Origin: Metallosphaera yellowstonensis MK1
GTDB lineage: Archaea; Thermoproteota; Thermoprotei_A; Sulfolobales; Sulfolobaceae
Direction of reading: 5' to 3'
Length of the DNA: 38,429 nucleotides
NCBI RefSeq assembly: GCF_000243315.1
Contig: NZ_JH597768.1
Location: forward strand, 109,498-147,926
A model generated the notes under the pieces. It ran no database searches. It was not told the origin of the DNA and saw only the letters and a program-made list of their open reading frames with translations. Shown one piece after another: positions 3,365 to 29,120 of this stretch. The translations under genes were made by a program, and so were the position numbers. Each line of letters begins with the position of its first letter. Position 1 is the first letter of the stretch.

Positions 3365-3745
3365 AGCATTGCTTCAGTAACCCACATCGCATGGCGCAAC
3401 CTCCTGGACAACGGCTAACATCGACTCGACTGGAACGTTATTCCAGGACTTTGAGCCCACAAAAGTTGTACTTAATTCTAATTCGATTATATGTTTTCCT
3501 GATAAAATGAATGACAAACCTCGCCTCTTCTAGGGGCGGGGTAAAGGTCATTAAGCCCAAAACTACTACTTCTAACAACAGTTTAGTGACTTCCCCTTTA
3601 TTACCGCCCCTTTTCAAGGAAAATCTAATAACTGCTATTCTAAGATGCCTTCTTCTGGTCAACTTCCTGGGGATGAGGAGCGGGAGCCGACCTCTCCCGC
3701 GATGCCCGGTATACCCAAAATGACCTCCTTGAAAATAAGTCATGA
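3365..3745. other. Intergenic region without a convincing gene
   Basis: Overlapping short frames here (3438-3743 and 3511-3723) have no domain signature and run through repeat sequence, so I do not call genes. The region contains one degenerate copy of the 64-bp element (3579-3636) and ends at the left end of the decayed insertion sequence at 3746. Confidence 0.5.
3579..3636 (+). repeat. Degenerate copy of the 64-bp MITE-like element
   Basis: The right half (aaaatctaataactgct) is identical to the full copies. The left half has lost three bases of the CAGCAG end and carries many substitutions. I see no target-site duplication, consistent with an old copy. Confidence 0.6.
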
Positions 3746-3839
3746 CAGCAGTTATGGGACTTTAACGTAACTTAAAGATTTTCATCAGCCCCGGCGGTCC
3801 GCCTAAATGACGTTCGAGAGCCTGAGGAACACCTCCACG

Positions 3840-4820
3840 CTCCTCAGGTTCAGCTCCCTATCAACTCCCTGACGACGTTGTTGATGGTGAAGATCGTGAG
3901 GTAGCCCTGAAGCCTCTCCCTCCTCCAGAATGAGGAGTCCCAGGGCCTTGACGTCCCTTGGAGGTCCTCGATCTCCCACCTTATCTTCCAGGCCTCCTCG
4001 ACTTCCTCGCTGAGCGAGAGGTCGGTCGTGTAGAGGTACCTGGCGTGTGTCCCAGAGTCACGTTTACATTCCCGGACTAGCAACTTTACCGTAATGGGTC
4101 GGCCTCCCAGGGTCAGGTCGGCGTAGTAGACTCCGGGGGGTATCCCACTCGGAGGTGTCCCTCCACCTCCTCGAGGGTCCCCTGGACCGACTCGACCCTG
4201 AGTTCGGTTGGACTTGAGCTCAGACACCGCGTTGTCCGTCACGAGCTTCTCGGACAGTACTGGGGTCGAAGACGACCCTGGCTACCGGAAGCGCTCCTTG
4301 AGCACGTCCAACATCTCGCCACCTCGATCTTGGTCTTGAACTCGGTGACCCTCACAAATTCAACATCTTCCTCACGGCGTAGGGGAAAGCCCCCACCATG
4401 AACGTCCTGCCCGTGGAGAGGTCCACTACGGCGACCGTGAGGAGCTTGGCCCTCTCGAACCTCCCGTGGGTGTGGCAGTAGGTCCAGTAGTTCTCAGGGG
4501 CTCACGTCCTCCCGGAGCGTCGTGGTCCACTGTGTCGTCCACGATGACGACCTGACCCTTCACCAGCCTGACAGGACCTCCAGGTAGTCCCTCCACGCAT
4601 CTCCGAGTTCTCCCAACGCCCCATCAATTCACGTTCCAACCCGAACGTCTCGGCCCTGTTCCTCACGCTGGCCCTCCCACCTACCAGGACCATGAGGAGA
4701 AGTGCCAGTTAACCTTCCTGCTCCTCCCGTTCCTCCCGACCACGCCCAGCCTGTTGATCTCCCTGACAGCCTCTCCCTAGCGAACTCGATCTGTCCCTTT
4801 CCGCACCTTTTCAGCAGGAA
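3840..4820 (-). pseudogene. Transposase remnant (DDE, IS4-like)
   Basis: Read from about 4820 down to 3850 with several frame changes, recognisable blocks appear in order: CGKGQIEFARERL near the N-terminus; a block around ENYWTYCHTHGRFERAKLL and VVDLSTGRTFMVGAFPYAVR; and a C-terminal block YLYTTDLSLSEEVEEAWKIR with WEIED, typical of the last strand and helix of IS4-type DDE transposases (the conserved Y..RW.IE Glu region). No frame is intact, so it cannot encode an active enzyme. The GC-rich composition differs from the AT-rich flanks. Exact family uncertain. Confidence 0.7.
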
Positions 4821-4833
4821 GACGTCGAAAAAT

Positions 4834-4894
4834 AAAAACTTCTCGCCAATACCGGCTTTTTCGTATTACCTCCCTAAGATTCCCATAACTGCTG
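4834..4894 (-). repeat. 61-bp IS-end repeat, copy 1 (upstream of the fix operon)
   Basis: Aligns without gaps over 61 bases, about 85% identity, with 8223-8283. It contains an imperfect hairpin around AATACCG/CGTATT and ends in CCCATAACTGCTG, the right terminal repeat of the decayed insertion sequence. Confidence 0.7.
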
Positions 4895-10483: not shown

Positions 10484-10547
10484 CAGCAGTTATGGGACTT
10501 TCCCTTAAATATCGCCCTGTAATCGAGGCAAAATCTAATAACTGCTG
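10484..10547 (+). repeat. 64-bp MITE-like palindromic element, copy A
   Basis: Ends CAGCAGTTAT and ATAACTGCTG are perfect inverted repeats. A central GCC...GGC hairpin sits off-centre. It is flanked on both sides by TAAAAAA (10477-10483 and 10548-10554), a 7-bp target-site duplication. It lies 22 bp past the stop of the secreted-protein gene on the other strand. Confidence 0.9.
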
Positions 10548-10569
10548 TAAAAAACAATTAACTTAAGAC

Positions 10570-11184
10570 TTAGTTGTCTGAGCCGTATCCAGAGTCAGAA
10601 GATCCAGAATTGTTATCTCCCTGACTTGAGTTGGTAGAATGATCAGGGCTGTTGTCAGACGCAGAAGTTACTCCGCTTCTGGTGTTGGAGTTCATGTCAG
10701 GGCTGTTGTCCCCCTGATACGGCTTGACTATAATGAGCGGTTTGTCTTGGACACCGTTTCCTTCAGGATTTTGAGATACTTGGTAAGACACCTTTATCTG
10801 AACCTGATAAGTTCCATTGCTCAAGTAAGTGTGAACATCGTTCTGTCCTTCGGTTAAGTAGAGGGTTTTATTACCCACTATTATAGTTACGTTGAAGGAA
10901 GAGAACACCGATTCTATGGGATTCTCATTTAATTCGAAGGTGTAGTTACCTGACGTATTGACTGTCATAGTAGTGTTGGCCGAGGCTGTTCCCAACTGAC
11001 CAGGAGTCAAATTACCTAGATTCAGATTCGCGGTGTTCAATATCACTTGGGGTTGTGCAGAGCTCTGACTTGTCACTTGACTTATCGTATAGGTTATAGT
11101 AGCCAAGGTCGAAAAATTGGCTGCACCGGCTGCAGCTCCAGTGGCCACTACGGCCGCCAGGAGTATTAGGGCCATCTTATTCAT
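10570..11184 (-). CDS. Secreted Ser/Asn-rich protein of unknown function
   Basis: Start chosen at 11184 because GGTGA lies just upstream (ggtgaaaaaATG) and the next residues form a signal peptide (MNKMALILLAAVVATGAAAG); the frame extends 19 codons further. The mature part has a predicted beta-sandwich-like region (about 25-150), with repeated N-x-S/T sequons and the segment LGNLTPGQLGTASANTTM. It ends in a low-complexity tail (about 150-203) of Ser, Asp, Asn and Gly with NSPD repeats and no anchor. No Cys. Its divergent neighbour is a cytochrome b/Rieske fusion, so it may be a cell-surface partner, but that is only context. Confidence 0.7.
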   Translation of the reverse strand: MNKMALILLAAVVATGAAAGAANFSTLATITYTISQVTSQSSAQPQVILNTANLNLGNLTPGQLGTASANTTMTVNTSGNYTFELNENPIESVFSSFNVTIIVGNKTLYLTEGQNDVHTYLSNGTYQVQIKVSYQVSQNPEGNGVQDKPLIIVKPYQGDNSPDMNSNTRSGVTSASDNSPDHSTNSSQGDNNSGSSDSGYGSDN

Positions 11185-11615
11185 TTTTTCACCCTGATCT
11201 CCTCTAGCCTCTTGTGTCTTATTAGGCACACACAAGTTCACAATTCCGGTCTACAGGGGGGCGTTTCAATCGAGTAATGAAATTCAGGAATCGCCAGACT
11301 TTCCTCAATTTTCACCTTGAAATAGGGAATCTAACAACCGCTTTGAAATAATTGAAGGAACGCACTCACGGGTGATGAGGACTTCCCGTTCAACTGTGAA
11401 ATCACGGTCAACAATTATTGGAATCGGTCTAGATTGCAGGGCGGTACTCAAGGGAAAATCCCACAATTGACGTCACGGTATACTTAATTTACGCTGTTTT
11501 GAGGAATGTTTCACCCTGAATGAAACGAGTGAAAATTGAAATTATACTTCAGATATTAAAAAATATACGTAAAAAGTATTTTAATAAAAGAAATACTCAA
11601 CGTTTCACAGGTTTC
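11185..11615. other. Divergent intergenic region
   Basis: About 430 bp between the secreted protein and the Rieske fusion. It holds a possible degenerate copy of the 64-bp element at 11285-11344 (similar GACTTTC and GGAATCTAACAACCGCT blocks) and a short inverted repeat GTTTCA/TGAAAC (11508-11526). No gene is supported. Confidence 0.4.
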
Positions 11616-11623
11616 TTATATAG
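11616..11623 (+). promoter_or_regulatory. TATA box of the cytochrome b/Rieske fusion gene
   Basis: TTATATAG lies about 26 bp before the ATG at 11646. This places transcription start at the start codon and argues against the upstream in-frame ATG at 11520. Confidence 0.55.
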
Positions 11624-11645
11624 AATCCCTCCCCAAGAGCTGGAC

Positions 11646-12863
11646 ATGAACCTTCAACAGATCTCCCTAGACGTGCTCTTCCTCACGACAGCGGCTGTAT
11701 TCGTTCATTACTTGACCAGAGGACGTCATTACCCCGAGCCAAAGGTCGGTGGAAGACACTTTGTTTTTTACACGAGATGGCAGAGACTCTTCCACTGGAT
11801 TACCTTCCTCCTCATGTCGATCCTCGCTCTCACAGGGTTCACCATGTTGCTCACCGGGAACTACTCGACACTGAACTTCCACAATTTACTAGGACTTTTA
11901 CTTTCTATCCCGTTCGTCGGACACGTGATCTTCGACTTCATGAGGCGTAGCGGGAGAGCTGAGATGACCATTAGAGTGAGGGAGCTCATGGAGTTGATTC
12001 GTCCTCACGGCGTTAAAGGTAAGATTGGAGGAAAGTATCATCCCTTGAAGAAGATGCTCCATCTGGGTTTTTCGCTTTCCTTTTTGGGCTTGGCGCTCAC
12101 AGGGGTCCCCATGTTTCTTTTCCCTACTGGGCTCGGACCCGTCGCGTTCACCTACGTGCTGGACCTTCACGTATTGTCAGCCTTAATGATGGTTGGGTTG
12201 GGGATAGGCCACATTTACATGGCTTTCCTACCCTCCAATAAGCCTCTCCTTATGGCCGTAACGGTAGGACTGATAGATGAGGAGTATTTGAAAGCTCACT
12301 ATGAGACGGCGAGTTTAAATTTGAGGCCCGTTGGGACGCGTAAGATCACGACTAACCTGAGCCGGAGAATTTTTCTGGAGTCTACTGTTCTGGCGTCTGT
12401 CCTAGCCCTGATGGCTGGGATATTAGCTGGGTCAATCAGTCAACGTAACGGAGGGAGTCCCAGTAGTTCCCAGTTACAAGCTCAGGGCGAGATAGGTCCG
12501 ATAGCTAACGTGAGTCAGTTGAAACCCAACACTGCGAAGATGTTCTCGTTTCCCAACGGCGCACCTGGGATAGTGGTAGAGCTACCCAACACGCAGCTCA
12601 AGGCGTTTAGCGCGGTTTGCACGCATCAAGGCTGTACCGTAGGCTACATACCTGAACAACAGATCATCTACTGTCCTTGTCACGGTGCTGAGTTTTCACC
12701 TCAGGACGGATCGGTGATCGCGGGTCCTGCACCGGCTCCCCTGACTGAGTACCCCATAGTGGTGGATCAGAATACAGGAAACGTTTACATCCAGCTGGGA
12801 TCTAACTCATCGCCTCCTCCTAGCAGAGGAGGGGGAGACGACGGGGGTGGGGGAGACGACTGA
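11646..12863 (+). CDS. Cytochrome b (FdhI/b561-like) fused through a Tat-type helix to a Rieske domain
   Basis: 405 aa from ATG 11646. After a first hydrophobic helix, four helices carry candidate heme b histidines: RLFHWITF, PFVGHVIFD, KMLHLGFSLS and LDLHVLSALMM with GIGHIYM, resembling the diheme cytochrome subunit of formate dehydrogenases. A cytosolic loop then leads to LSRRIFLESTVLASVLALMA (about 275-295), a twin-arginine motif plus hydrophobic helix as in Rieske Tat signals. The outer C-terminal domain has the cluster motifs CTHQGCTVGY and CPCHGAEF and the Pro loop GPAPAPLTEYP. It ends in Gly/Asp-rich low complexity. It should link a quinone-side cytochrome to an external [2Fe-2S] centre in one chain. 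The partner is unknown; no separate cytochrome b or oxidase gene is adjacent. Confidence 0.85.
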   Translation: MNLQQISLDVLFLTTAAVFVHYLTRGRHYPEPKVGGRHFVFYTRWQRLFHWITFLLMSILALTGFTMLLTGNYSTLNFHNLLGLLLSIPFVGHVIFDFMRRSGRAEMTIRVRELMELIRPHGVKGKIGGKYHPLKKMLHLGFSLSFLGLALTGVPMFLFPTGLGPVAFTYVLDLHVLSALMMVGLGIGHIYMAFLPSNKPLLMAVTVGLIDEEYLKAHYETASLNLRPVGTRKITTNLSRRIFLESTVLASVLALMAGILAGSISQRNGGSPSSSQLQAQGEIGPIANVSQLKPNTAKMFSFPNGAPGIVVELPNTQLKAFSAVCTHQGCTVGYIPEQQIIYCPCHGAEFSPQDGSVIAGPAPAPLTEYPIVVDQNTGNVYIQLGSNSSPPPSRGGGDDGGGGDD

Positions 12864-12965
12864 GTGTTCACTAGTGTGTCATCCTCTTTGCACCCTAGAT
12901 TACGCGGGTACAACCGGTCTCCTTTTATCTCTACACCCCTATTCGACTCTTTTATGTTTGACCGT

Positions 12966-13001
12966 GACCGAGTTTAGGGACTTAGTCCTCAGCCACCTAC
13001 C
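12966..13001 (-). pseudogene. tnpB 3'-end fragment (first part)
   Basis: On the minus strand this encodes GRWLRTKSLNSV, matching GWLRAKSLHSI at the C-terminus of the intact TnpB at 27283. A second matching piece lies about 310 bp away (13311-13400), with unrelated sequence between. Confidence 0.6.
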
Positions 13002-13104
13002 AAGACTGTAACGCTTCTACGTAACTACTGGTCATTTTTAATCACTTCTAAATATCGTTTTGACAAGTTGTGTTTATATAGTATCACCGAAGTAGTTCTT
13101 ATTG

Positions 13105-13293
13105 ATGATCCCCCTAACTGATGACGGGCACTGCTCACGAGGTTTGGGGAGTGATAAGAGTGTGGATGGGAGGGTATTGGTGTTTCCCTCGACCAGCCCC
13201 AATGAGTTAAGGGTGACCGTGTATGATCCCTCAAGAGGGGTGCCCGTGGTGGAATTAGAAGTAATTAAAGAAGGTAAGTTACGCCACGGGTAA
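13105..13293 (+). CDS. Possible 62-aa protein between tnpB fragments
   Basis: A TATA box GTTTATATAG (13071-13080) sits about 28 bp before ATG 13105, the spacing of a leaderless gene. The protein starts MIPLTDDGHCSRGLGSDKS, faintly like the start of NifX/NifB-type dinitrogenase-cofactor proteins, and continues with hydrophobic strands (RVLVF, LRVTVYD, VVELEVIKEG). It lies between two pieces of one tnpB end. The resemblance is weak, and it could be a truncated or chance frame. Confidence 0.35.
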   Translation: MIPLTDDGHCSRGLGSDKSVDGRVLVFPSTSPNELRVTVYDPSRGVPVVELEVIKEGKLRHG

Positions 13294-13310
13294 ACACTTA
13301 CGATAAATGA

Positions 13311-13400
13311 GTTAAGGGACTCCCTGAACCTAACGGTGTAAGGCTCCAGTATCCTTCGTTGCTTCCCTCTGGATAGAGCTTACACGATGTGAGGGCTCAT
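13311..13400 (-). pseudogene. tnpB 3'-end fragment (second part)
   Basis: On the minus strand it reads SLTPLGSGSP, matching SPVPLGSKES of the intact TnpB just upstream of the part found at 12966-13001. Decayed; the flanking bases towards 13420 are no longer alignable by eye. Confidence 0.5.
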
Positions 13401-13458
13401 GTTTTAAAAAAAAACATAATAAATAAGCTTAATCAATATTCAATACAAAAATAATTAA

Positions 13459-13522
13459 CAGCAGTTATTAGATTTCGCCTCTACTTCAAGGCTACACCTA
13501 ACGAGAAATCCCATAACTGCTG
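13459..13522 (-). repeat. 64-bp MITE-like palindromic element, copy B
   Basis: Full-length copy in reverse orientation, bounded by CAGCAGTTAT and ATAACTGCTG. A 7-bp direct repeat TAATTAA flanks it (13452-13458 and 13523-13529), read as a target-site duplication. It lies about 40 bp beyond the stop of the small frame at 13564-13764. Confidence 0.9.
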
Positions 13523-13563
13523 TAATTAAGTCCATTTGATTCGCGTGATGATCCTTAAACCCT

Positions 13564-13764
13564 TCAATTGCGGGAGGGAGTCGTAGAGACCTTCTCCGTG
13601 TATCTGACATATCGGCAGACCCTCCCCGTGAATGCTAAGTCTGATCGAGGAAGTTCAGTGGAATTACATCCGTCCAACCTGACCACCCTCAGGACGGTTT
13701 CAGAAGCCGTGACGACGTTTTGAAAGTGAGAGGAGATCACCTCGATCCGATACCTCTCACTCAT
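13564..13764 (-). CDS. Possible small protein downstream of the hydratase gene
   Basis: 66 codons on the same strand, 48 bp after the enoyl-CoA hydratase stop. The first half (MSERYRIEVISSHFQNVVTA) looks protein-like; the second half is Arg/Thr-rich and less convincing, and a second short frame runs on in another phase. I read it as a possible truncated gene and do not recognise a family. Confidence 0.3.
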   Translation of the reverse strand: MSERYRIEVISSHFQNVVTASETVLRVVRLDGCNSTELPRSDLAFTGRVCRYVRYTEKVSTTPSRN

Positions 13765-13812
13765 CCCTCGCTGAAACTACGAACCCACCCTCCCTTGTGA
13801 GCTCTTGAATCC

Positions 13813-14559
13813 TTAGCTAGATTCCCTCAGGCGTCTCTCTAGGAAATCTCTCATCCTATCTCTAGCCTCTTTAGATAAGTTCATGAGAGTCAGTTCCCTA
13901 ACCGCCTCCCTAATTCCCTGTCTCTCTCTACTCAACCAAGTCTTCATGACCCTGATAGACATCTGATCTAATCCAGCTATTTTCTTCACTATGCCTCTCA
14001 CCGCCTCCCTCAGCTCCCCTTCCTTCACGACGTAGTCTACCAGACCCAGTTCCTTAGCCCTCAGTGAGTCGATGACCTCCGAGGTGAGCATCAACCAAGC
14101 TACGGGTCTCCCCATAGCCCTATAGCCTATGGTGAGAGCCATGGGCGGGATTAGACCCAGCTTACCCTCCGGGATGGAGAATTTGGCACCCTCGACCGCT
14201 ACCACCACGTCCATGAGGAATAGGAGCTCACAACCCCCACCGTAGGCCAAGCCGTTCACAGCGCCTATCACGGGCTTCTTCACGTGGAACAGGGAATCCA
14301 CTGCGTACCAGAGGTTGTTAAAGAAGTCCTCGGCCTTCTCAGGAGTGTCCGCCTGCAACATGGCTTCGATGTCGTCCCCGGAGGAGAACGCCCTCCCGCT
14401 CCCGCTCACCACCAACGCTATCGTGTCTGCTTCGTTTCCCCTCCTTAAGGCGTCTCCTAAAAGTCTCCAGGCCTCCCCGTCCAGAGCGTTAAGTTTCTCC
14501 GGTCTATTGAGGGTTATCCAAGACACTCCTTCCTCCTCGTGGTACAGTACCTTGGTCAA
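13813..14559 (-). CDS. Enoyl-CoA hydratase/isomerase family protein
   Basis: 248 aa, a typical crotonase-fold length. The oxyanion-hole segments are SGRAFSSGDDIEAM (about 52-65) and NGLAYGGGCELLF (about 100-112). Both catalytic acids of true hydratases appear to be present: Glu in GGCEL and Glu in FSIPEGKLGL (about 132). The C-terminal helices include RQGIREAVRELTLM. It would add water to a trans-2-enoyl-CoA in fatty-acid or amino-acid breakdown, or in the hydroxypropionate/hydroxybutyrate cycle of this order; the substrate cannot be told from sequence. The start overlaps the stop of the VWA gene by 4 bp, so the two are co-translated. Confidence 0.9.
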   Translation of the reverse strand: MTKVLYHEEEGVSWITLNRPEKLNALDGEAWRLLGDALRRGNEADTIALVVSGSGRAFSSGDDIEAMLQADTPEKAEDFFNNLWYAVDSLFHVKKPVIGAVNGLAYGGGCELLFLMDVVVAVEGAKFSIPEGKLGLIPPMALTIGYRAMGRPVAWLMLTSEVIDSLRAKELGLVDYVVKEGELREAVRGIVKKIAGLDQMSIRVMKTWLSRERQGIREAVRELTLMNLSKEARDRMRDFLERRLRESS

Positions 14560-15743
14560 GACCTCAACCTCTTTGTGACCTCACTGGAGAGACTCCTTAA
14601 GTCGTTAAGTCTCGTGAGTCTCTTGGTTTCCTCAATCAGGTCTGTCCTCTTCGTCTTCTCGGCGAGCTGGCTCAGTTCCGCGACTCTCCTCGTTACCTCC
14701 ACTGGATCCCCAGAGTTCAACGTTTCCAGCACCTCCCTGAGTTTCTGATAGTAGTTTACCTCCGTCACAACGGAGGAGTTGAGTCCAGACCTGAAGTCCT
14801 CCTGTGACCTCGCCGGTGATAGGGTTATCTCACCCTGTTCAACCTTTCTTTCACCGTCCACCGGATCTACGTACTCCACCCTTAGGTTAAGGACCTTACC
14901 CGAGTAGTTGGGGGGAACCTCAACGTAACCAAAGACTTTAATCACCCCTTCAACTGATCCCAGGAATACTGGGAACCCCTGGAAGTTCACCAGGTTGACC
15001 TTGAGATCGCTCTCGCATTTTAAGACAGTTTCCTTTGCTGCGACAGGGCCAGTGGTCTCGGTCTTCAGTACCTCCAACACTTCGCTCATACTCTCAGCGT
15101 GATAATACCTGCCGTTGGTAATGTCAGCCAACGCAGAGAGGATAGAGGCGTTGTACTCTCCCACTCCTATGGGCACTATCTGGACGAAAGGCGGAAACTT
15201 AAGGCTCCTGTACCGCCTCGGATCCTCCACGTCGGTCGGGTAACCGTCCGTTATTATTATGACCTTTGACGTATTTTTCGTGGTCAGTTCCAGGGCAGTG
15301 GAGATAGCTTGGTAGAGCGAAGTGTTGCCTTCCGGCCCGATGTGGTCCAGGTACTCTAGGGACGTGGAGGGACTCACCCCCCTGCAGATCACTCTCACGG
15401 AGTCTGAAAAGGTTATTAATGTTATTCTAGAGGAAGGATCGAGCTCTTCCAGCACCTTTCTCAGGGCCTCAAGTGCGGTATCTATCCTCCTGGCTCCTAC
15501 TCGGTCCTTCAAGTAGACTACCTCCTTACCGTCGACCACACCGTATCCTTCAATGAGCGAAGGATCCACTTGATTGACGTCTATGTCCACCAGGTTCATT
15601 GACCCACTGGTGTCCAGGACGATCACTAGGTCCTGCCCAACCTTAGCCGTTATCTCAGGAACCACAACAACGGAGAAGTAAAGTCTCATGGGAGAATTCC
15701 AGCTCCTACTCTGACTAGCCCTGATCCTCAGCGAGAGGGTCAT
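14556..15743 (-). CDS. VWA-domain protein with complete MIDAS site
   Basis: 395 aa. The frame opens at a TTG at 15764, but a TATA box (minus-strand TTTATAC, 15766-15772) overlaps that region, so transcription should begin near ATG 15743, which I take as the start. The von Willebrand A domain (about 38-210) has the metal site DTSGSM, the Thr in GNTSLYQAI and the Asp in IITDGYPTD. A beta-rich region follows (about 220-310), then an alpha-helical C-terminus with Glu/Lys/Arg-rich segments. There is no signal peptide, so it is cytoplasmic. Such proteins act as Mg-dependent protein-binding modules, often with MoxR-type ATPases, none of which is seen here. It forms an operon with the downstream hydratase. 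Confidence 0.85.
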   Translation of the reverse strand: MTLSLRIRASQSRSWNSPMRLYFSVVVVPEITAKVGQDLVIVLDTSGSMNLVDIDVNQVDPSLIEGYGVVDGKEVVYLKDRVGARRIDTALEALRKVLEELDPSSRITLITFSDSVRVICRGVSPSTSLEYLDHIGPEGNTSLYQAISTALELTTKNTSKVIIITDGYPTDVEDPRRYRSLKFPPFVQIVPIGVGEYNASILSALADITNGRYYHAESMSEVLEVLKTETTGPVAAKETVLKCESDLKVNLVNFQGFPVFLGSVEGVIKVFGYVEVPPNYSGKVLNLRVEYVDPVDGERKVEQGEITLSPARSQEDFRSGLNSSVVTEVNYYQKLREVLETLNSGDPVEVTRRVAELSQLAEKTKRTDLIEETKRLTRLNDLRSLSSEVTKRLRS

Positions 15744-15765
15744 AGCTATCTTGAGCTTACCCAAC

Positions 15766-15772
15766 GTATAAA
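15766..15772 (-). promoter_or_regulatory. TATA box of the VWA-hydratase operon
   Basis: TTTATAC on the minus strand, centred about 26 bp before ATG 15743, fits a leaderless transcript and decides the start of the VWA protein. Confidence 0.5.
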
Positions 15773-15774
15773 CC

Positions 15775-16070
15775 TTGATGCACTCTTCGATCCGTGGTTC
15801 TGGTAAGCGCCTGAAATAGAATTGTCTCTAACCTGTAAAACCAATTTTGAAGACTTTGTCTCGGTCGTTGTACCTCGGGGACCGGGGACATAGGTCACAT
15901 CAAACCCTTTATCAAAAGGTACCTGTGCTGACGCATTGAGTCTTAAGCAGTCTCTCGGCCCCTGGGATCAAGGGCCGTCTTTCATGCTCGGTAAACCTAA
16001 AGAGTCAGCCCAGGATGATCGGCCGGAAGTGCAGAAAGAACCTCTTGTAGCTCCGAATGCTTTAAAAACG
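15775..16070. other. Intergenic region
   Basis: About 300 bp between the divergent VWA and EamA genes. I see promoter-like GCTTTAAAAAC (16060-16070) for the transporter and no supported gene; the frame at 15936-16163 has no recognisable features. Confidence 0.4.
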
Positions 16071-16095
16071 TTCATGTTTCACTCATTTGGTAACG

Positions 16096-16932
16096 TTGAA
16101 CAGAAGTTACCTCTACTTGATTGTTCTTGTGATGGTTTGGGGCTCTGCATTTCCCGTCATTAAGATTGCCCTAGACTACTTGTCGCCCTTCCTCATAGCC
16201 CTCGTGAGAGTGACGGTGGGGGGCACACTCCTCCTCCTCGTATCTAGGAAGTTGATATATGGTAAGAAGGAGGCGATCTCCGCAGTCCTCAACGTGGGCC
16301 TCTTCATGATCCTGTTGAACCTAGGAGTGGAGTACTCCTCCAACCCTGGACTGACCTCCACGATGATATACACGCAACCCGTCTTCGTGACTGTCCTCTC
16401 CAGATTCGTGCTCAGGGAGAGATTGATACCACTACAGATACTGGGAGTGGTACTGGCTTTCTCAGGGGTCCTCATCTCAGTGGGCAGTACCGACTTCTCC
16501 ATCGGTTCAATCATAGCGATCTTGGGTGGACTGACCTGGGCCGTAGGTACGATCTATCACAGATTGTACTTAAGCGACAGAGACGTTGTTGGACTCAACA
16601 CCTTCATGTCCTTGTTCTCTGCCCTCCTCATTCTGCCCTTGTCCTTTGTGGACAGTAAGTTCTCCTTAGATCCTGTGGGGTGGGGTTCCACTCTCCTCCT
16701 CGCGGTCACTGCCCAGGCGACTGGGTTCCTGCTCTGGTTCAAATCTGTAAATATGTTGGGTCCGGTGAAGGCTAGCTCTGCTGTACTATTAGTACCGGTT
16801 TCCTCCTATCTCTTCTCTGCTCTTTTACTGAGGACTGCCCCTACCCTGCTGGAAGGATTGGGGTCTTCCATCACCTTGCTTGGGGTGTTCCTCACATTCT
16901 TGAGACCTGGAACTCTGAGAAGATCGAGGTGA
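16096..16932 (+). CDS. EamA/DMT-family transporter
   Basis: About 278 aa with ten predicted membrane helices in two repeated EamA halves. The first begins YLIVLVMVWGSAFPVIKIAL, the classic EamA start (WGsxF..ik). The second half begins around LGGLTWAVGTIYHRLYL. Starts are TTG 16087 or TTG 16096; the TATA-like CTTTAAAAA at 16061 favours the latter. These proteins export or import small metabolites such as amino acids; the substrate is unknown. Monocistronic. Confidence 0.85.
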   Translation: MNRSYLYLIVLVMVWGSAFPVIKIALDYLSPFLIALVRVTVGGTLLLLVSRKLIYGKKEAISAVLNVGLFMILLNLGVEYSSNPGLTSTMIYTQPVFVTVLSRFVLRERLIPLQILGVVLAFSGVLISVGSTDFSIGSIIAILGGLTWAVGTIYHRLYLSDRDVVGLNTFMSLFSALLILPLSFVDSKFSLDPVGWGSTLLLAVTAQATGFLLWFKSVNMLGPVKASSAVLLVPVSSYLFSALLLRTAPTLLEGLGSSITLLGVFLTFLRPGTLRRSR

Positions 16933-17578
16933 GAGAGCCACGGAGTTAGAAACTTAACCTTTCCTCTGACCTCCTACCTGCCCTGAGGATGGGGGTTCCT
17001 GGGAGAATCTGGTCTGTGGTTCACAGCCTTCATTCTCACTACTTCGTGGATGGTGTCCCTCAGCTGGCCAGTTCCGTTCGTCCGGCGGTAGATCTCGGAC
17101 CAGTCTTCAGGTCGTTACCCAACCCATATCTCTCACCGCTGAGAGACCTCTATCCGTGATGTTAGGGACTCGGGGAGGTGGGGAGTAGTCACCGAGTAGA
17201 CCCTCAGGGGGATGTTTTACTCGGGAAATTTTGAGTATTGGGATGCAGAAACCATAACTCACCCCTGGAAGGGGGTGAGTCTAACTGTTCTGTGTCAACA
17301 GTTTCCGATAAGCGAGAAAGTCTATATTACTTGTTAGAAGAGATAAATATAGTCACGCCAGATAGGGTAAAGGTATCCCGACGAGGTGTGACGGTCGGCT
17401 GAAGGTGTGCTGGCTTCCTCAACGGATAGAGACACTCCGTTGGGTTTGGAGTTATCCCGCTAAAGGGACGGAGGATGAACGGATCAAGCCTTGACTCCGT
17501 GAAGTCCAGGAGCTGAGGATTGATATCATACATTGCGAAATCTCGTGAAGTCCAAAACCCATTGTGGGATGTTTGTTC
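16933..17578. other. Intergenic region with hairpin and weak ORFs
   Basis: A 56-codon frame (16989-17159) and a minus-strand 68-codon frame (17327-17533) are open, but neither shows a domain or promoter. The clearest structure is the hairpin ACTCACCCC/GGGGTGAGT at 17257-17280. Possibly decayed mobile DNA. Confidence 0.4.
17257..17280. other. Strong GC-rich hairpin
   Basis: ACTCACCCC and GGGGTGAGT are perfect 9-bp arms around a 6-nt loop (TGGAAG). It lies about 300 bp beyond both the EamA and the kinase gene ends (convergent), so it may be an RNA structural element or an insertion-sequence relic. There is no oligo-T nearby, so it is not a bacterial-type terminator. Confidence 0.5.
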
Positions 17579-20092
17579 CTAATCTTTGATCAGCCTCAGC
17601 TGATCGAGCGTTTCCCTCATGGGAGGTCTAGCTGACGGGTCGGGACTGACCATCTTTAGGATCAGCCTCATAAGGCAGTCTTGATCGACAACCCTTATCT
17701 TCTGGTAATGTTCACTATACACCTTCCTAGCTCTATCGAGGTGCGACCTGTAATCCCTACGGTCCAGAAACGCGTCCACTGAACTATCCATCTCCTTAAC
17801 CATTTCTGGAGGGTTCAGGGGGTTGCGAGTCAATAATTTGTAAATAGTAGCCCCCAACGCGTAGACGTCCATCTCAGGCTTAGCTCCAGTCCCTAAGAGC
17901 ATAGACTCCACCTGATCCACAGGGCAATATTCCCCAGTGTACTCGGTAATCTTTTCGCCTATCCTCCTAGCTGAGCCCAAGTCGCCTAGCTTTACCTGCA
18001 CAGAACCGCTCCTTAAGTTGTTTAGGACCTCCTCTCCAGATCCACCAGGTGGAGAGGAGAAAAATATGTTTCTAGGCTTCACGTCCAGATGAACGTATCC
18101 CTCTGAGTGAACTACCTGAAGAGCGGAGGCCATTCTCCTGAGTATTTCCATCACAATCAACTTCCACTCCTTAGAGCGGGATACTTGCGTGATCTTCAGG
18201 AGGTCCTCCGCTGTCCCACCCTTCATCAGTTCCATAACTATGGCCGGAGGGTTGGTCAGGTATAGATAGGGTTTACCTCCAAGGATGTCCCTAATGCTAT
18301 TCACGTCAGCATAAACTCCATACAATTTTACGATGTCACCAGACCTCTCAGATATCTCCTGGAGCTTTGAGGATTCCTTACTTAAATCTGAGAAAGTACC
18401 CAATCCTACCCTGGTCAATGATGAGGATGAAGATGGAGACACCGTTGGGATCTTTATGGCATACTTCTTCCCTTCCCTTACACCTAGTAGGACATAGGAA
18501 GTACCTCCTACACCTAACACCGAGGAGATCTCGTAACCGTAGATCGTCTTCCCGATCCAAACACCAGGGTCCCAATTTCTGAGGGATGGTGGCCTCACCT
18601 GGACCATTATCTTTTTCTCCGCTCTCATGCCGTCCCTGATCCCCTCAACCTCAACTGTATAGGTCTTAGCTTCCGTGGGACCAAATATGGCCTCATAGAC
18701 CCCTACGTCTGGGTTGCTGAAAGACATCTCCTCCCCATTAACCCTAACCCACAATTTGTCCACAGAAACCTTTCTCCCACCCAGTGAGGGACTCACTCTA
18801 ACGAATAACTCTGGCCATCTATCTTGAACGTCTACATCTAGATCTAAAGGACCTCTCACCTCTATTTCCTTGGAGGCAGCCAACGTGGTGTCCTTCAGAT
18901 TGGCTATTGCTTCAACCACGTAATTGCCAGGTTGCCTTAACTCATATTCGCCTACGTACTTACCCCTCTCCTTTGAGGTGAGGGAGACATCCTCGCCGTT
19001 AACCTTCACTGTAACCTTAGCGTCAAGTACGCTGGTAAGTCTAACGGTGAGCCTGAGAGTTTTACCGTCTATTTGGTGATCTATGCGGATCTGCGGGAGG
19101 GTTCCCTGTTTAGATTGAACTTTGAAAGTTCTCTTTACACATAATGACTCCACGCAGGTTTCTACTAAGTGATCACCAGGAGTGATGTCAGAAACTATTG
19201 CTTCTAAGTTATCTCCAACTATCCTGTAGTTTAATGGGGTACCATCCAACCTTAAGCTGATCCTCTTACTTTTTGGGACTTGAGCTCTTATTATGATCCT
19301 GTTTTCCGTCACCTCAATACGAATTCCTATGGATTCTGGAGAGATGGTCAGAGAGGAACCTGTCACCAGGGGTATGATGGTAATAGACGGCGAAAAGAGG
19401 AGGTAGGCCAAGGCAGACAACACAATGAAGGGAAAGGTACTGAAAGTTTTGAAGCCAAAGAGGGTGAGTGTTAAGGTTGCGATCAGAACATAAAGGGTAA
19501 TCTGGTACAGACCGGGGGGCCAGATGTGGGTAATGAGGTACAGGATGGCTTGGTTAGAAAGAAGAGAGGAGCCCAGAAAAGCTAGAACTGAGCAAATCAA
19601 GGGCGATATCCGCCGATTGACGTCCTGAATTACAGGAACAGCAGAGAGTAGAGGAACAGAGGCTAGGATTTCCCAAGGAAAATCCATTTCCCTAACCAAT
19701 GTAATATAAGAAGCTAAATATGACAAAGAAAGAAAAACGAAGGTTACTAAGGAGAGCATCGGGTTCCTCCTAATCCATAAGGGTAGGGTGAGGGACGAGA
19801 GGGTGAGAGCGAGGGTCAAGGCTAGGATCCATATATTATTTGTGTGAAGGATAAGGAAGAACAGGGGAACAACCAATAACGAAATAACTGTAGCAGGTAT
19901 AGCCAATAGGTTCCCCCTAGGGTGGCTGAGGAGTGGGGCGATCATAAAACCCGTCAAGATAGGAAGAAAAGTTCCAAGAAGGGTTCTTTGGTTGGTGAGA
20001 GAGGATGGATCCTGGGAGATAAGGTAAAATCCCACCATGTATATAGAGAAAATAGCATAGATAACGAAGAATTTGTTTGAGGTAAGCCTCAT
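17579..20092 (-). CDS. Polytopic membrane Ser/Thr protein kinase with extracytoplasmic-type beta domains
   Basis: 837 aa. Residues 1-245 form about nine or ten membrane helices. Residues about 250-505 are beta-rich Ig-like repeats (repeating pattern K-VDGE-VSLTS...YVGEYELRQPGNY). A Hanks-type kinase domain fills 510-837: Gly-rich loop LGVGGTSYVLLG (about 528), Lys in KYAIKIP (about 546), catalytic loop HSEGYVHLDVKPRNIFF (about 667), metal-binding DLG in KLGDLGSARR (about 702) in place of DFG, and MDVYALGATIYKLL. All catalytic residues are present, so it should be active. The helices precede the repeats without an obvious later membrane span, so the beta domains and kinase probably lie on the same, cytoplasmic side. 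Monocistronic. Confidence 0.88.
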   Translation of the reverse strand: MRLTSNKFFVIYAIFSIYMVGFYLISQDPSSLTNQRTLLGTFLPILTGFMIAPLLSHPRGNLLAIPATVISLLVVPLFFLILHTNNIWILALTLALTLSSLTLPLWIRRNPMLSLVTFVFLSLSYLASYITLVREMDFPWEILASVPLLSAVPVIQDVNRRISPLICSVLAFLGSSLLSNQAILYLITHIWPPGLYQITLYVLIATLTLTLFGFKTFSTFPFIVLSALAYLLFSPSITIIPLVTGSSLTISPESIGIRIEVTENRIIIRAQVPKSKRISLRLDGTPLNYRIVGDNLEAIVSDITPGDHLVETCVESLCVKRTFKVQSKQGTLPQIRIDHQIDGKTLRLTVRLTSVLDAKVTVKVNGEDVSLTSKERGKYVGEYELRQPGNYVVEAIANLKDTTLAASKEIEVRGPLDLDVDVQDRWPELFVRVSPSLGGRKVSVDKLWVRVNGEEMSFSNPDVGVYEAIFGPTEAKTYTVEVEGIRDGMRAEKKIMVQVRPPSLRNWDPGVWIGKTIYGYEISSVLGVGGTSYVLLGVREGKKYAIKIPTVSPSSSSSLTRVGLGTFSDLSKESSKLQEISERSGDIVKLYGVYADVNSIRDILGGKPYLYLTNPPAIVMELMKGGTAEDLLKITQVSRSKEWKLIVMEILRRMASALQVVHSEGYVHLDVKPRNIFFSSPPGGSGEEVLNNLRSGSVQVKLGDLGSARRIGEKITEYTGEYCPVDQVESMLLGTGAKPEMDVYALGATIYKLLTRNPLNPPEMVKEMDSSVDAFLDRRDYRSHLDRARKVYSEHYQKIRVVDQDCLMRLILKMVSPDPSARPPMRETLDQLRLIKD

Positions 20093-20523
20093 GACTTAAG
20101 TTATTTTGGAAATAGGTTCCTAAAATAGTGAACTCCTCCTTTCATAGGAGGTTACTTCAGAGGGACTTCACTAATTCAGAGAGCCAAAATTGCCGTTATA
20201 GTTTAAAAACCCATAATTCTAAACAACCTCTAGCTAATCTTTCCCTTAGCACTTGATAGGGTAAAGAGGGTTAAGTGTAGTCACTTAGTTACAAATTATG
20301 ATAGTAATCCTCTCTCCCACAGGACTAAGGCTATTGAGTGCTTTACCATCTCCATGCTTCCATTAACTGTCTTGGTGGACCTCTTGAACCTGACCAGATT
20401 GTCCCTCAGGTGCTACCCTAAAGTGAAACGATCCAATCATCAACGAATGTCCCCGAACTGGCCCCATCTTACTGGAGAAGGGAAAAACCTTTTATGAAGA
20501 TAAAGAAATTGAGTCCCTTGAAA
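20093..20523. other. Intergenic region
   Basis: About 430 bp between the kinase and a secreted-protein gene. A short open stretch from about 20356 (MLPLTVLVDLLNLTRLSLRC) looks like an insertion-sequence N-terminus remnant, but I cannot place it. A small hairpin CCTCC/GGAGG occurs near 20135-20151. Confidence 0.3.
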
Positions 20524-21030
20524 TCACTGAACTAGCTGAGTGGCTAATGTAACCATGGAGCTTAAACTGGGCAATGCCCCAGAGCTGCCCACATAGGATA
20601 TCTGGACATAATTATCTCCGCTTACTAAGTATACTATTTCTACCTGACCCAAGGAGTATGTAGAGACCCAAACCCCATTAACCAGCGAGGGGCTGGAAGA
20701 GGAAGTACTCTCCAAGTAGTTCAGTGCACTCTGCTGAGAGGGGAATTTGACCTGAAGTATCGACAACATGTCACCGCCTTGATCCGTCATATTGACGTAT
20801 GATATAGGATTGGAACCGAACCCTTGTAGGAATATGAACGGAGACCCATCAGCTACCCCCCTGTAGGAGCTATACACAGTCCATGATAAACCTGTATAGT
20901 GGTTCACCAACGTTAAGGCGGGGTAAGAGGGAACTTGTGCGTTAGGATTCCCGCCTAGGAAACCCAGCGAAAGTGCCCCTGCTATCAACACGATAGCTAC
21001 AACCTCTCCTATTCTAACACCCCATTTCAT
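20524..21030 (-). CDS. Small membrane-anchored or secreted protein, unknown
   Basis: 168 aa. N-terminal signal anchor MKWGVRIGEVVAIVLIAGAL followed by a compact outer domain (about 35-168) rich in Tyr, Ser, Val with no Cys. It contains FLQGFGSNPISYVNMTDQ and alternating strands QVEIVYLVSGDNYVQISYVG, probably a single alpha/beta domain. The start is the only good one; a TATA-like ACATAAATT lies about 23 bp upstream. Divergent from the DUF5658-like gene. Function unknown. Confidence 0.7.
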   Translation of the reverse strand: MKWGVRIGEVVAIVLIAGALSLGFLGGNPNAQVPSYPALTLVNHYTGLSWTVYSSYRGVADGSPFIFLQGFGSNPISYVNMTDQGGDMLSILQVKFPSQQSALNYLESTSSSSPSLVNGVWVSTYSLGQVEIVYLVSGDNYVQISYVGSSGALPSLSSMVTLATQLVQ

Positions 21031-21191
21031 CTTTGCATCACTATTAAATGTAATTTATGTAGATTTCACTAATAAGCTTTGTGTTTAAGTGTAGATAAAT
21101 GTATGTGAAAGTGTTCATCTGAGTTATTTTTAATATGTTTGACTTCTTTAAAACGTATGCAACTTTTAAGTATAAGTGGAGAAGAAGAGGC

Positions 21192-21470
21192 ATGATGCAG
21201 AGAGCTATTACTGGTGCCTTAATCGGGTTGGGGGTCATCGACGTCCTAACTACCTTTTATGGAGTCTCGCAGGGATATGTTGAGGAGAATCTATTTCTCC
21301 ACGCCCTGTCGGGCAACCCGATCCTGATGATCACGGTGATGGCCGTACTAAAGACTATTGCTGTGGCGTTGAGTTACCTTCTATTGAGAAGATCCATGAT
21401 CTTCCCGGCGTTACTTCTCATCGGTTTGTTTGCCTTGGCAGATCTATCCAACCTAGCCTTGCTTATGTGA
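21192..21470 (+). CDS. DUF5658-like small membrane protein
   Basis: 92 aa from ATG 21192; the TATA-like CTTTTAAGTAT about 26 bp upstream excludes the longer frame from 21135. Three or four helices. The first carries LGVIDVLTTFYGVSQGYVEE with N next, the Asp/Thr...Glu-Asn spacing typical of DUF5658 proteins. A basic R-R-R-S-M turn and an Asp in the last helix (ALADLSNLALL) follow. Role unknown. Confidence 0.7.
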   Translation: MMQRAITGALIGLGVIDVLTTFYGVSQGYVEENLFLHALSGNPILMITVMAVLKTIAVALSYLLLRRSMIFPALLLIGLFALADLSNLALLM

Positions 21471-21559
21471 AGTGTGAGCTTGTGGCATTTAGAACTCTCT
21501 TCTGACCTGGGTGGTCCTCGTCTGCTGAAAGTTCTTTACACCTTGTTGACTATTATTGC

Positions 21560-22033
21560 ATGTTAATCAAACCTGAACCCTCGCTAAAGGATCTACAGCT
21601 TCAGTTGGAAAGTACTGGGTTGAAGAGTGAGGATCTGCTCAAGATATACAAAAGGATGACCCTCATTAGGTATTTCGAGGAGTCCATAAGGAAGATTTAC
21701 CACGGGAAAACCCATTCAACATGGCCTCAGGGGTCATAAGAGGAGAGATGCGCCTGTCAGTTGGCAAGGAAGCTACTACTGTTGGTACTCTCTATCTGTC
21801 CAGAGACAGTGACGTCGTGGTTAGCACGCATAGGCCTCACAATCACGCCATAGCCAAGGGAGTTGGCCTCAAGGGGTTGGCCTCTGAGATCTTCGGGAAG
21901 TCCACTGGACTGTGTAAAGGAAAGGGAGGACATATGCACCTCTTCCACAGGACCAAGAACTTTGCGTGTAATGGTATAGTGGGCGCTTCGTTTCCTCAGG
22001 TAGCAGGGGCAGCCTTCACGTTTAAGTACTCAG
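21560..22033 (+). pseudogene. 2-oxoacid (pyruvate/acetoin-type) dehydrogenase E1 alpha, frameshifted and truncated
   Basis: ATG 21560 begins a typical E1-alpha N-terminus (IYKRMTLIRYFEESIRKIYH). Around 21705 a one-base loss in the CCC run (after GGGAAAA) shifts the frame; the family sequence resumes at 21721 with ASGVIRGEMRLSVGKEATTV, STHRPHNHAIAKGV and KGKGGHMHLFH. The frame ends after about 160 of the usual 330 residues, exactly where the 64-bp element begins (22034). The thiamine-diphosphate GDG...N motif is missing, so it is non-functional. No E1-beta or E2 gene lies nearby. Confidence 0.8.
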
Positions 22034-22097
22034 CAGCAGTTATGGGATTCTCCCTTAGGTACCGCCCTGTAATCTAGGTGAAATCCAGTAGCTGCTG
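22034..22097 (+). repeat. 64-bp MITE-like palindromic element, copy C
   Basis: Same length and left end as the other copies; the right end is GTAGCTGCTG. Both changes in the right arm keep pairing as G-U when read as RNA. It sits at the break point of the E1-alpha pseudogene. The flanking 7-mers (TACTCAG and TCCAGGG) match poorly, so it is old, or a deletion removed the far flank. Confidence 0.85.
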
Positions 22098-22235
22098 TCC
22101 AGGGAAAAACACCACGAAATAGTGGGCTAAATATTTTTTACGTTAAAAAGTTTTTATCGTTGTTTATTACAATTTTTACTAATAAAACATGATCTCTCAC
22201 ACCGATGTGGGCTCTGCCCAAAAGGGAGTGATCGC

Positions 22236-22385
22236 AGAGATGTGAGCCCTACGCCTTTTGGCTCGAGGGAGTCCCATAACCCATCTACCGTAAAGCTTGG
22301 TGGATAGTTGAGGGCTAAGTCCCTACACTCGATCGTGATCGAAGACAAAATGATTGAAATGCAGGTGTGAGGACAAACTGAAACT
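22236..22385 (+). pseudogene. Solo tnpB 3' end with downstream flank
   Basis: Encodes DVSPTPFGSRESHNPSTV, then after a small disruption LRAKSLHSIVIEDKMIEMQV and a stop at 22368-22370, matching the last 40 or so codons of the intact TnpB at 27283-28509. Similarity continues past the stop (GGACAAAC), so the element's right end is kept while the rest of tnpB is gone. Confidence 0.75.
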
Positions 22386-23109
22386 CGCGTGGACTTCACG
22401 GTAATAAATGGAAGAGCGTTACACCTAAATCTTAAAGGTGAGGGCGTGAACTGTTCTCCCTTCAGCTCCCTAGGGCGGACTAGTTACGTCTCATGGTTCG
22501 CTAACTCTCCAGGGATATCCATAAGCTCAGTGAGACTAGCGGGATGTTTATAGTTATTTAGTGCTACATCCTTATTTCCTAGACATTTATATTTAATCTT
22601 GTTGGTATAACGAGATATTATCTTAAAAAGATACTTATACTTCTAATAGATGACCATAAGGATTACCAGTGAGCCGTCATAGGGAACGTGTATTCCCTTG
22701 GACATCTTTACCACTACGTTACCGACGTTTTCCTCAGATCTGCTTCCATGCCCATCTAGTGCCAAGCTGTAGGCTAGGAGTGAGGGTTGAAATTCCCAGG
22801 CTCTACGGACCATTTTACCCTATAAGCAGCAGTTATGGGATTTCTCGTTAGGTGTAGCCTTGAAGTCAAGGCAAAATCTAATAACTGCTGCTATGAGGCG
22901 GTCTGATCATAGAGCCTATCTAGGCCGTCGAAGGTAGAAGAGATGCCTCACATAATCCTCTCCCTAGCGAAGTACTCTCAGCAACGCTTATCCATGAGGA
23001 TATCAATATTTCTTTCTAAAAATGGATTTAGTTGAGGTTCGTCCCATCCGTCACAGGAGGGTTCCCCCATCCCCGAAAAGTTAAAACTTATGAGAGTTGT
23101 AAGTCGGGT
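22386..23109. other. Mobile-element graveyard without supported genes
   Basis: Apart from the 64-bp element at 22827-22890 I see no gene. The stretch 22550-22660 is AT-rich with TATA-like sequence, and 22669-22851 is an open frame without features. It separates the broken E1-alpha gene from the respiratory island. Confidence 0.45.
22827..22890 (+). repeat. 64-bp MITE-like palindromic element, copy D
   Basis: Best-preserved structure: a 17-bp terminal stem (10 perfect pairs, one mismatch, one wobble, then five pairs) and a perfect inner hairpin GCCTTG-AAGT-CAAGGC. Flanking 7-mers CTATAAG and CTATGAG differ by one base, a decayed target-site duplication. Confidence 0.9.
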
Positions 23110-27282: not shown

Positions 27283-28509
27283 CTACACTTTCATTTCAAT
27301 CATTTTATGTTCATTCATGATCGAGTGTAGGGACTTAGCCCTCAACCACCCACTTAAGGTAGGTGGGTCATGGGACTCCTTCGAGCCCAACGGCACGGGG
27401 CTCACATCTCCAGCCCTCCTCGCTAAGTTGTACAGTGCAACCACGTCCCTATGCCACCTCTCCTTCCCCTTCCCACAAACACCAACCCTTGGGGCATCGC
27501 CCCCATCGGGTCGGTAAACGATCTTCGTCCCGTGGACTGGGCAAACAGTGGAAGTGTGAGACGGATTAACTAAGAGTACGGGGACACCGAACTCCCTAGC
27601 CTTCTCTATGATGGCGTTCTTCATTGAGGAAAATGCAGATCTATAAATCCTCAACCTAAGCTGTTTATCCTTCACGTCCTTCATCATATGCTCCGGAGTT
27701 CTCCCCGGCAAGTCCTCCAAAACTATGGCACTCCTACTTTCAAAAGCCTCTTTGACGATCAGCTTGGCTAATTTCCTCCTAACGTCTACTTTCTTATCCC
27801 TCTCCCTCAGCCTCTTTAACTTCCTCCTCACTTCCCTATCCTTAGTTGGCTTACCAGTAGTTGTCAACTTCCTCCTATACTCATAGCCCAGAGTAATCTT
27901 AGTGTTAGTCTCAAGCAATAAGGGTTTACTGTTGATGAGCACCGAGACCGAATTCTCATTTAGGTCGACGGGGATGAAACCCTTAGGCTCATAAGGTTTA
28001 ACATCCCTCTTAAAAATGACGTAGAACTCTACAACGTTCCCCTTCATCAGCCTAAACCTGGCCTCACTGGCAATCGACCAGCCCTTGTTATAATATCTCC
28101 AGAAGATCTTAGGGAAGGTTGGTGAAATGAGAATCCTACTCCTCTTTGTGGAAATTGAAATCGTGTCGAGACTGAACTTCCACAGATGATCATCTAGATG
28201 CACAGTGACCTTCCTCACAGACGGTTTCTCAGTGTAGGCCCTACCCCTCCTCTTCAACTTCTCAAAACTGTCCAACCTCTCGCTTGCGTCCTCACAGGCT
28301 GTGTAAATGAAATGGGATGGTAAGTCCTTGTACTTCTCCCTCTCAGTCTTGTAAATCCCAGCTTTAATCCTGGTGAAGGAGGTAGTCTCGTTTGACAGCC
28401 CATAATTTATTGCGTCCTCTAGAACCTCTCTGTACTCCCCCTCAACTTCCTTAAGTGCTGAGTAAGTTTTATGGTCAACCCTAACCCTTAACTTCACTGT
28501 CCTCTCCAC
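27283..28509 (-). CDS. tnpB: TnpB, RNA-guided nuclease of the IS607-type element
   Basis: 408 aa, full length. The RuvC-like acids are visible: Asp in FIPVDLNENSVSV (about 186), Glu in AIVLEDLPGRT (about 268) and the final Asp in WHRDVVALYNLA (about 363). The zinc-finger region is atypical: CPVHG replaces CPxCG, and only VCGKG follows, so one or two ligands are missing or substituted. TnpB uses a right-end RNA (omega RNA) to cut DNA and helps the element persist. It overlaps the tnpA remnant by 29 bp. The 3' end is repeated, decayed, at 12966-13400 and 22236-22385. Confidence 0.9.
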   Translation of the reverse strand: MERTVKLRVRVDHKTYSALKEVEGEYREVLEDAINYGLSNETTSFTRIKAGIYKTEREKYKDLPSHFIYTACEDASERLDSFEKLKRRGRAYTEKPSVRKVTVHLDDHLWKFSLDTISISTKRSRILISPTFPKIFWRYYNKGWSIASEARFRLMKGNVVEFYVIFKRDVKPYEPKGFIPVDLNENSVSVLINSKPLLLETNTKITLGYEYRRKLTTTGKPTKDREVRRKLKRLRERDKKVDVRRKLAKLIVKEAFESRSAIVLEDLPGRTPEHMMKDVKDKQLRLRIYRSAFSSMKNAIIEKAREFGVPVLLVNPSHTSTVCPVHGTKIVYRPDGGDAPRVGVCGKGKERWHRDVVALYNLARRAGDVSPVPLGSKESHDPPTLSGWLRAKSLHSIMNEHKMIEMKV

Positions 28510-29120
28510 TCAACTCACCTATCAACTTTTTTACACCTTGAACTAGGAGTGTTTTCTTATGACTCCTCATTCCGTAAATTTTACCAGCGAATGAGGTAAT
28601 GATGGAAATTAAGTCCTCCACAAGTTCCTGTGCGTCATCTTTGGGCTCCTCACCGAAAACTACTTCAATCTTAACTCCCACGGTTGAGAAGAACTCCTCA
28701 ATGTACTCGAAACCGAACCTTGTTAACCTATCTTTGTAGGTTATTAATACGACGTCTACACTCCTTCCCTCAACAAGTTTGAATAACTTGAGCAATCCTT
28801 TCCTTCCTGTGTTCAACCCGCTAGCTACATCTTTCAGTTTCAACCACCTTGTAACCCTTTGCCGTTGCGTAATTTGTTAGGTAGTTCATTTGTCTCTCCA
28901 AGTCCTCTTTTTGATCGGTAGAGGACACCCTTGCATAAATTACAGCCCTCGTCTCTTCCCTCCTCTCTAAGTACTTCTTAATCTCGCTGTAAGGTATCCT
29001 ATACTTCCCTCCTTCAGTCGTTACTGCCCTTATTTTCCCTTCTCTAATCCACCGTAGGAGTGTTGAGTATGAAATGCTGAGCAGTTGGCAGGCCTCCTTG
29101 GGTCTCAGTAGTCTCTCCAC
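28481..29120 (-). pseudogene. tnpA: IS607 serine recombinase (TnpA), split by a frameshift
   Basis: The N-terminal part (29120-28821) has a MerR-like DNA-binding segment, LLRPKEACQLLSISYSTLLR with WIREGKIRA, and the resolvase start AVIYARVSSTDQKEDLERQM containing the catalytic Ser. After GYKVVE the frame shifts by +1 at about 28845, and the rest (LKDVASGLNTGRKGLLKL, ITYKDRLTRFGFEY) continues in another phase to 28481. Joined, it is a normal-length IS607 transposase. A single-base insertion explains it best; programmed frameshifting is possible but lacks an obvious slippery run. Confidence 0.85.

Follow-up and report, generated by a model that had tools for sequence, protein, structure and literature searches.

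The window analysed here is a stretch of 38,429 nucleotides from Metallosphaera yellowstonensis MK1. The published draft of this genome has 2.82 Mb and 47.7% G+C and was already noted for its 283 transposon sequences (PMC7325606); the assembly we used contains 2,817,452 bases on 21 contigs. The window holds several copies of a very short element, some of them flanked by target-site duplications (TSDs), together with a decayed insertion sequence (IS) of the ISC1217 type and, at 27283-29120 on the minus strand, an IS607-type arrangement. The individual features are:

3576-3637, plus strand: decayed copy of the element, 62 bp (profile score 25.3; TSD TTCTAA, 6 bp)
3746-4894, minus strand: decayed ISC1217-type IS, 1149 bp, with termini CAGCAGTTATGGGA (both ends found; no TSD)
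3850-4242, minus strand: fragment of an ISC1217-type transposase gene (Pfam DDE_Tnp_2, E = 8.7e-18, profile positions 202-318 of 327)
10484-10547, plus strand: element copy 1, 64 bp, CCCTTAAATATCGCCC-interior group (exact ends; TSD TAAAAAA on both sides)
11409-11472, minus strand: decayed copy, 64 bp (score 37.8 for a profile match at 11410-11468; reading the sequence gave the edges and the TSD TCACGGT)
13459-13522, minus strand: element copy 2, 64 bp, GTGTAGCCTTGAAGT-interior group (exact ends; TSD TAATTAA on both sides)
22034-22097, plus strand: element copy 3, 64 bp, where a dehydrogenase E1 gene breaks off (no TSD; profile score 65.3)
22827-22890, plus strand: element copy 4, 64 bp (profile score 72.7; flanks CTATAAG and CTATGAG)
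27283-28509, minus strand: TnpB-like protein with a Cas12f1-like TNB domain, following the recombinase pieces in the IS607-type arrangement
28821-29120 and 28481-28843, minus strand: MerR/HTH and serine-recombinase pieces, split by a frameshift or stop

The initial annotation had reported four palindromic elements, each exactly 64 bp long and the one at 13459 inverted, with directly repeated 7-mers at three of the four sites. We re-found all four with this length and orientation, whereas the two decayed copies at 3576 and 11409 had been overlooked. Two of the flanking pairs are exact, the pair at copy 4 contains one mismatch and copy 3 has no duplication. Allowing at most one mismatch, CAGCAGTTAT occurs 12 times in the window compared to 1.8 expected occurrences, and none of the shuffled sequences reached 12.

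At copy 3 the E1 fragment stops at the edge of the element, with 104 residues kept; the open frames of its relatives have 351-370. A search of the genome for the remainder of the gene, run without a positive control, returned no match. This arrangement fits an insertion followed by a one-sided deletion. The truncated gene together with its element was found twice, at 21721-22077 of the window and at G000:C14:5556-5867, and the two loci agree over 852 bp at 99.9% identity. On C14 an ISC1217-type IS with two non-matching flanks interrupts the element; that contig contains runs of N, and the interrupted copy may reflect a rearrangement or an assembly join.

To count copies we searched the whole assembly with a pattern of two 10-bp ends separated by 44 bases, with up to 3 mismatches permitted over the 20 end positions. 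This pattern search detected 164 copies of exactly 64 bp and the reversed control pattern none, so that further copies are indeed abundant in the genome; a sequence-model search gave at least 157 matches. The close analysis covered 1.04 Mb of stretches (47.9% G+C) that were picked partly for their element density, and the genome-wide counts come from the separate searches. In these stretches 200 copies scored 25 or above and 167 were near full length. The latter measured 64 bp in 129 cases, 63 bp in 22 and 62 bp in 9. Overall the element is present at about 200 genomic places. Its length is 62-65 bp, mostly 64 bp, and it has no capacity to encode a transposase. Among 106 distinct copies, 85-99% have the outer 10 bp of the terminal inverted repeat paired, and the repeat extends imperfectly to ∼17 bp. 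The two largest sequence groups comprise 45 and 34 distinct 64-bp sequences.

Exact direct repeats of 6-9 bp were observed at 89 of the 167 near-full-length copies, about half, while shuffling the right flanks among copies gave an expectation of ∼0.8. The most frequent length was 7 bp (53 copies), followed by 6 bp (23), 8 bp (11) and 9 bp (2). With one mismatch permitted in repeats of 7-9 bp the count rose to 105 of 167, and about one third of the near-full-length copies had no recognisable TSD. The 7-bp duplications start with T in 42 of 53 cases and end with A in 39 of 53, a T-N5-A preference. We then joined the flanks of individual copies with a single TSD and searched the same genome for paralogous empty sites. 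The copy at C17:559428 has an empty counterpart on C19 with 99.2% identity over 240 bp, ungapped; other paralogous sites showed 83-97% identity and also matched the element edges. One copy, at C17:28931, is inserted into DNA that matches a decayed ISC1217-type IS copy. The window duplications had been taken to prove mobility; three of them alone are insufficient for this, and it is the TSDs counted across the 1.04 Mb and the empty sites that support it.

A spread by segmental duplication or recombination, with accidental direct repeats, therefore has a negligible chance of being correct. A few copies do have long flanks in common (three duplicated flank pairs), but the TSD count is about a hundredfold above the shuffled expectation, empty sites exist and no reciprocal exchange of flanks was found between copies lacking a TSD.

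We next consider the source of the transposase. At many places in the genome we encountered two kinds of unpaired end, CAGCAGTTATGGGACTTTAACGTAACTTAAAG and CAGCAGTTATGGGAATCTTAGGGAGGTAATAC, mostly 1.0-1.2 kb apart. The protein encoded between them matches Pfam DDE_Tnp_2, 'Archaeal putative transposase ISC1217', with E = 2e-81. This resident ISC1217-type IS is ∼1.2 kb long and has the 14-bp terminus CAGCAGTTATGGGA in common with the small element. Several of its copies encode a transposase that covers nearly the full DDE_Tnp_2 profile without stops, and flanking such copies we found TSDs of 6-7 bp, mostly 7 bp (ACCTGTT, TAACAGA, TGATCAG, CTGGAGA, TCAGGA and TAATTA), which agrees in length with the mode of 7 bp in the small element. 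Among decayed ISC1217-type copies only 3 of 31 have a TSD, in contrast to the small elements; the missing ones may be due to old insertions, to rearrangements or to joins made at repeats during assembly.

The association of the two is also visible in the distribution of the terminus. The 1.04 Mb contain 302 exact occurrences of CAGCAGTTAT: 194 belong to small elements, 51 + 51 to the IS ends, and 6, some of them fragment-like, lie elsewhere. Apart from these 6, the terminus occurs in these stretches only in small elements and in the resident IS. The left end of the small element is identical to the IS over 14 bp and the right end over 10 bp; the latter, CAGCAGTTATTAGA, deviates at positions 11-12 from the end of the IS. 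Beyond the first 10-18 bp there is no clear sequence common to both, and thus the small elements are not simple deletions of present IS copies. Shorter derivatives of ∼350, 600 and 850 bp that are bounded by both IS ends do occur. Those of ∼350 bp (349-354 bp; G000:C19:775878, G000:C17:3344 and G000:C17:32424) are deletion derivatives of the IS and possibly form a second non-autonomous family.

Taken together, we conclude with a probability of roughly 0.92 that the elements are a very short family of miniature inverted-repeat elements (MITEs) moved in trans by the transposase of the resident ISC1217-type IS, a reading based on sequence comparison. The initial annotation had already proposed a MITE family, which we uphold, and had overlooked the likely mobiliser, a copy of which lies in the same window. 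The DDE transposase of the IS would act in trans on the 64-bp elements, insertion would duplicate 6-8 bp of target (mode 7 bp, T-N5-A preferred) and, judging from the transposase family, transposition would proceed by cut and paste. Insertions into genes would be lost, leaving copies almost only between genes.

The mismatch of CAGCAGTTATTAGA at positions 11-12 and the lack of a clear match beyond 10-18 bp mean that the family may descend from a relative of the IS that is extinct today. It is unlikely, though, that the family was mobilised by a different IS, since lost, that began with these 10 bp too, the resident IS being no more than similar. Besides the deviating right end and the unrelated interior, this would be in line with an IS in another genome (G016) whose end, CAGCAGTTATCATATTTTCCCTTAG, is similar to some copies in their left part. 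The resident IS, on the other hand, is practically alone in carrying the terminus, combines the 14 bp of the left end with the same TSD length and is represented in this genome by full-length transposase genes. We infer that the resident transposase, rather than that of a lost relative, does the moving.

A host function is the remaining alternative: the copies could be regulatory sites, terminators or structured RNAs now under selection, with the TSDs left over from their initial spread. The strong palindromy and stable predicted folds, the position between genes and the existence in another genus of relatives that are similar in length and interior would all agree with this. Only 3 of 83 reconstructed insertion sites fall in a long open reading frame (ORF), compared to 58% of random positions. 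Short open frames run through a few copies, but a coding use of the element was rejected because long genes are avoided. For naive ORF calls the copies show no bias to a particular type of gene pair: 21% convergent, 28% divergent and 51% tandem, against 21%, 31% and 47% for random intergenic points. The conserved off-centre hairpin described in the initial annotation exists as sequence; pair counts, however, yielded few compensatory changes in it, no more than slid controls, and we rejected it as a selected structure. Gene-pair placement and hairpin pair counts thus gave no sign of a host function. Given also that five congeners lack the element and many copies are decayed, selection for function is highly improbable. 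The placement and hairpin results fit a selfish element that loses its genic insertions, and the family is presumably selfish.

Pattern and model searches detected no copies in five other genomes of the genus. In 30 other Sulfolobaceae genomes the 64-bp pattern was absent save for one copy in G021. In three genomes of another Sulfolobaceae genus (G011-G013) the model gave 3 to 12 matches each, at least one of them chance-like. Over much of the 64 bp, most of the fetched matches could be aligned at ∼70-80% identity; their ends were decayed. As there are relatives in another genus, the family either predates its present expansion or moved between genera. Other Sulfolobaceae carry related ISs whose ends follow the type (C/T)AGCAGTT(A/G)T and whose TSDs are similar. 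Plasmid and phage records contained no matches, and viral contigs one with a loose pattern and none with a stricter one. GTDB contigs contained isolated chance-like matches plus one contig, JAFMDM010000144.1. This contig (G021:C41, titled 'Euryarchaeota archaeon') has an insertion site of the element in common with C10:678571 and is therefore probably a mislabelled or mis-binned contig of this species or of a closely related strain.

The resident IS and ISC1217 are alike in transposase family (DDE_Tnp_2), a length of ∼1.15-1.2 kb, TSDs of 6-7 bp and ends beginning (C/T)AGCA. A canonical-looking ISC1217 in another genome (G014) has the ends TAGCAC and TAGCAT and 6-bp TSDs, in contrast to CAGCAGTTATGGGA and mostly 7-bp TSDs in the resident IS; that genome gave no match to the model of the 64-bp element, which, unlike ISC1217, has no transposase. 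REPINs are likewise very short, palindromic, dispersed and mobilised in trans, but depend on RAYT and leave no TSD; the REP/BIME/REPIN class was ruled out by the TSDs, and the partner here is of the DDE type.

The closest parallel are the MITEs SM1-SM4 and SMN1 of Sulfolobus and Saccharolobus, which are also non-autonomous, have terminal inverted repeats and TSDs and are moved by resident IS transposases. SM1 is about 79 bp long and SM2 is tied to ISC1217. SM3A (164 bp) is moved by ISC1058 and SMN1 (320 bp) by ISC1733 (PMC3718332), and SM2-SM3 reach 25-44 copies per genome (PMC10969869). The present element is shorter than SM3A and SMN1 and has at least 164 copies against those 25-44; judging by their descriptions, it is probably distinct from the SM elements. 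The initial annotation had not recognised it as one of them. Its ends differ from the canonical-looking ISC1217, and no description of the 64-bp family appeared in the literature searched, a body of work with most subscription papers outside it. It is probably a new family of a known kind, unusually short and abundant.

The family is shorter than the Sulfolobales MITE families of known length and several-fold more numerous, and a likely source of its transposase can be named. With about 200 copies it offers ample material for insertion polymorphism and for rearrangement between homologous sequences. A natural substrate of 64 bp would also suit the biochemistry of a thermophilic DDE transposase. 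It is conceivable, if doubtful, that ∼64 bp is close to the lower size limit for DNA moved by an ISC1217-type transposase, with the length kept across two Sulfolobaceae genera since the paired-end complex would need it. The element would then mark the minimal substrate of this transposase family.
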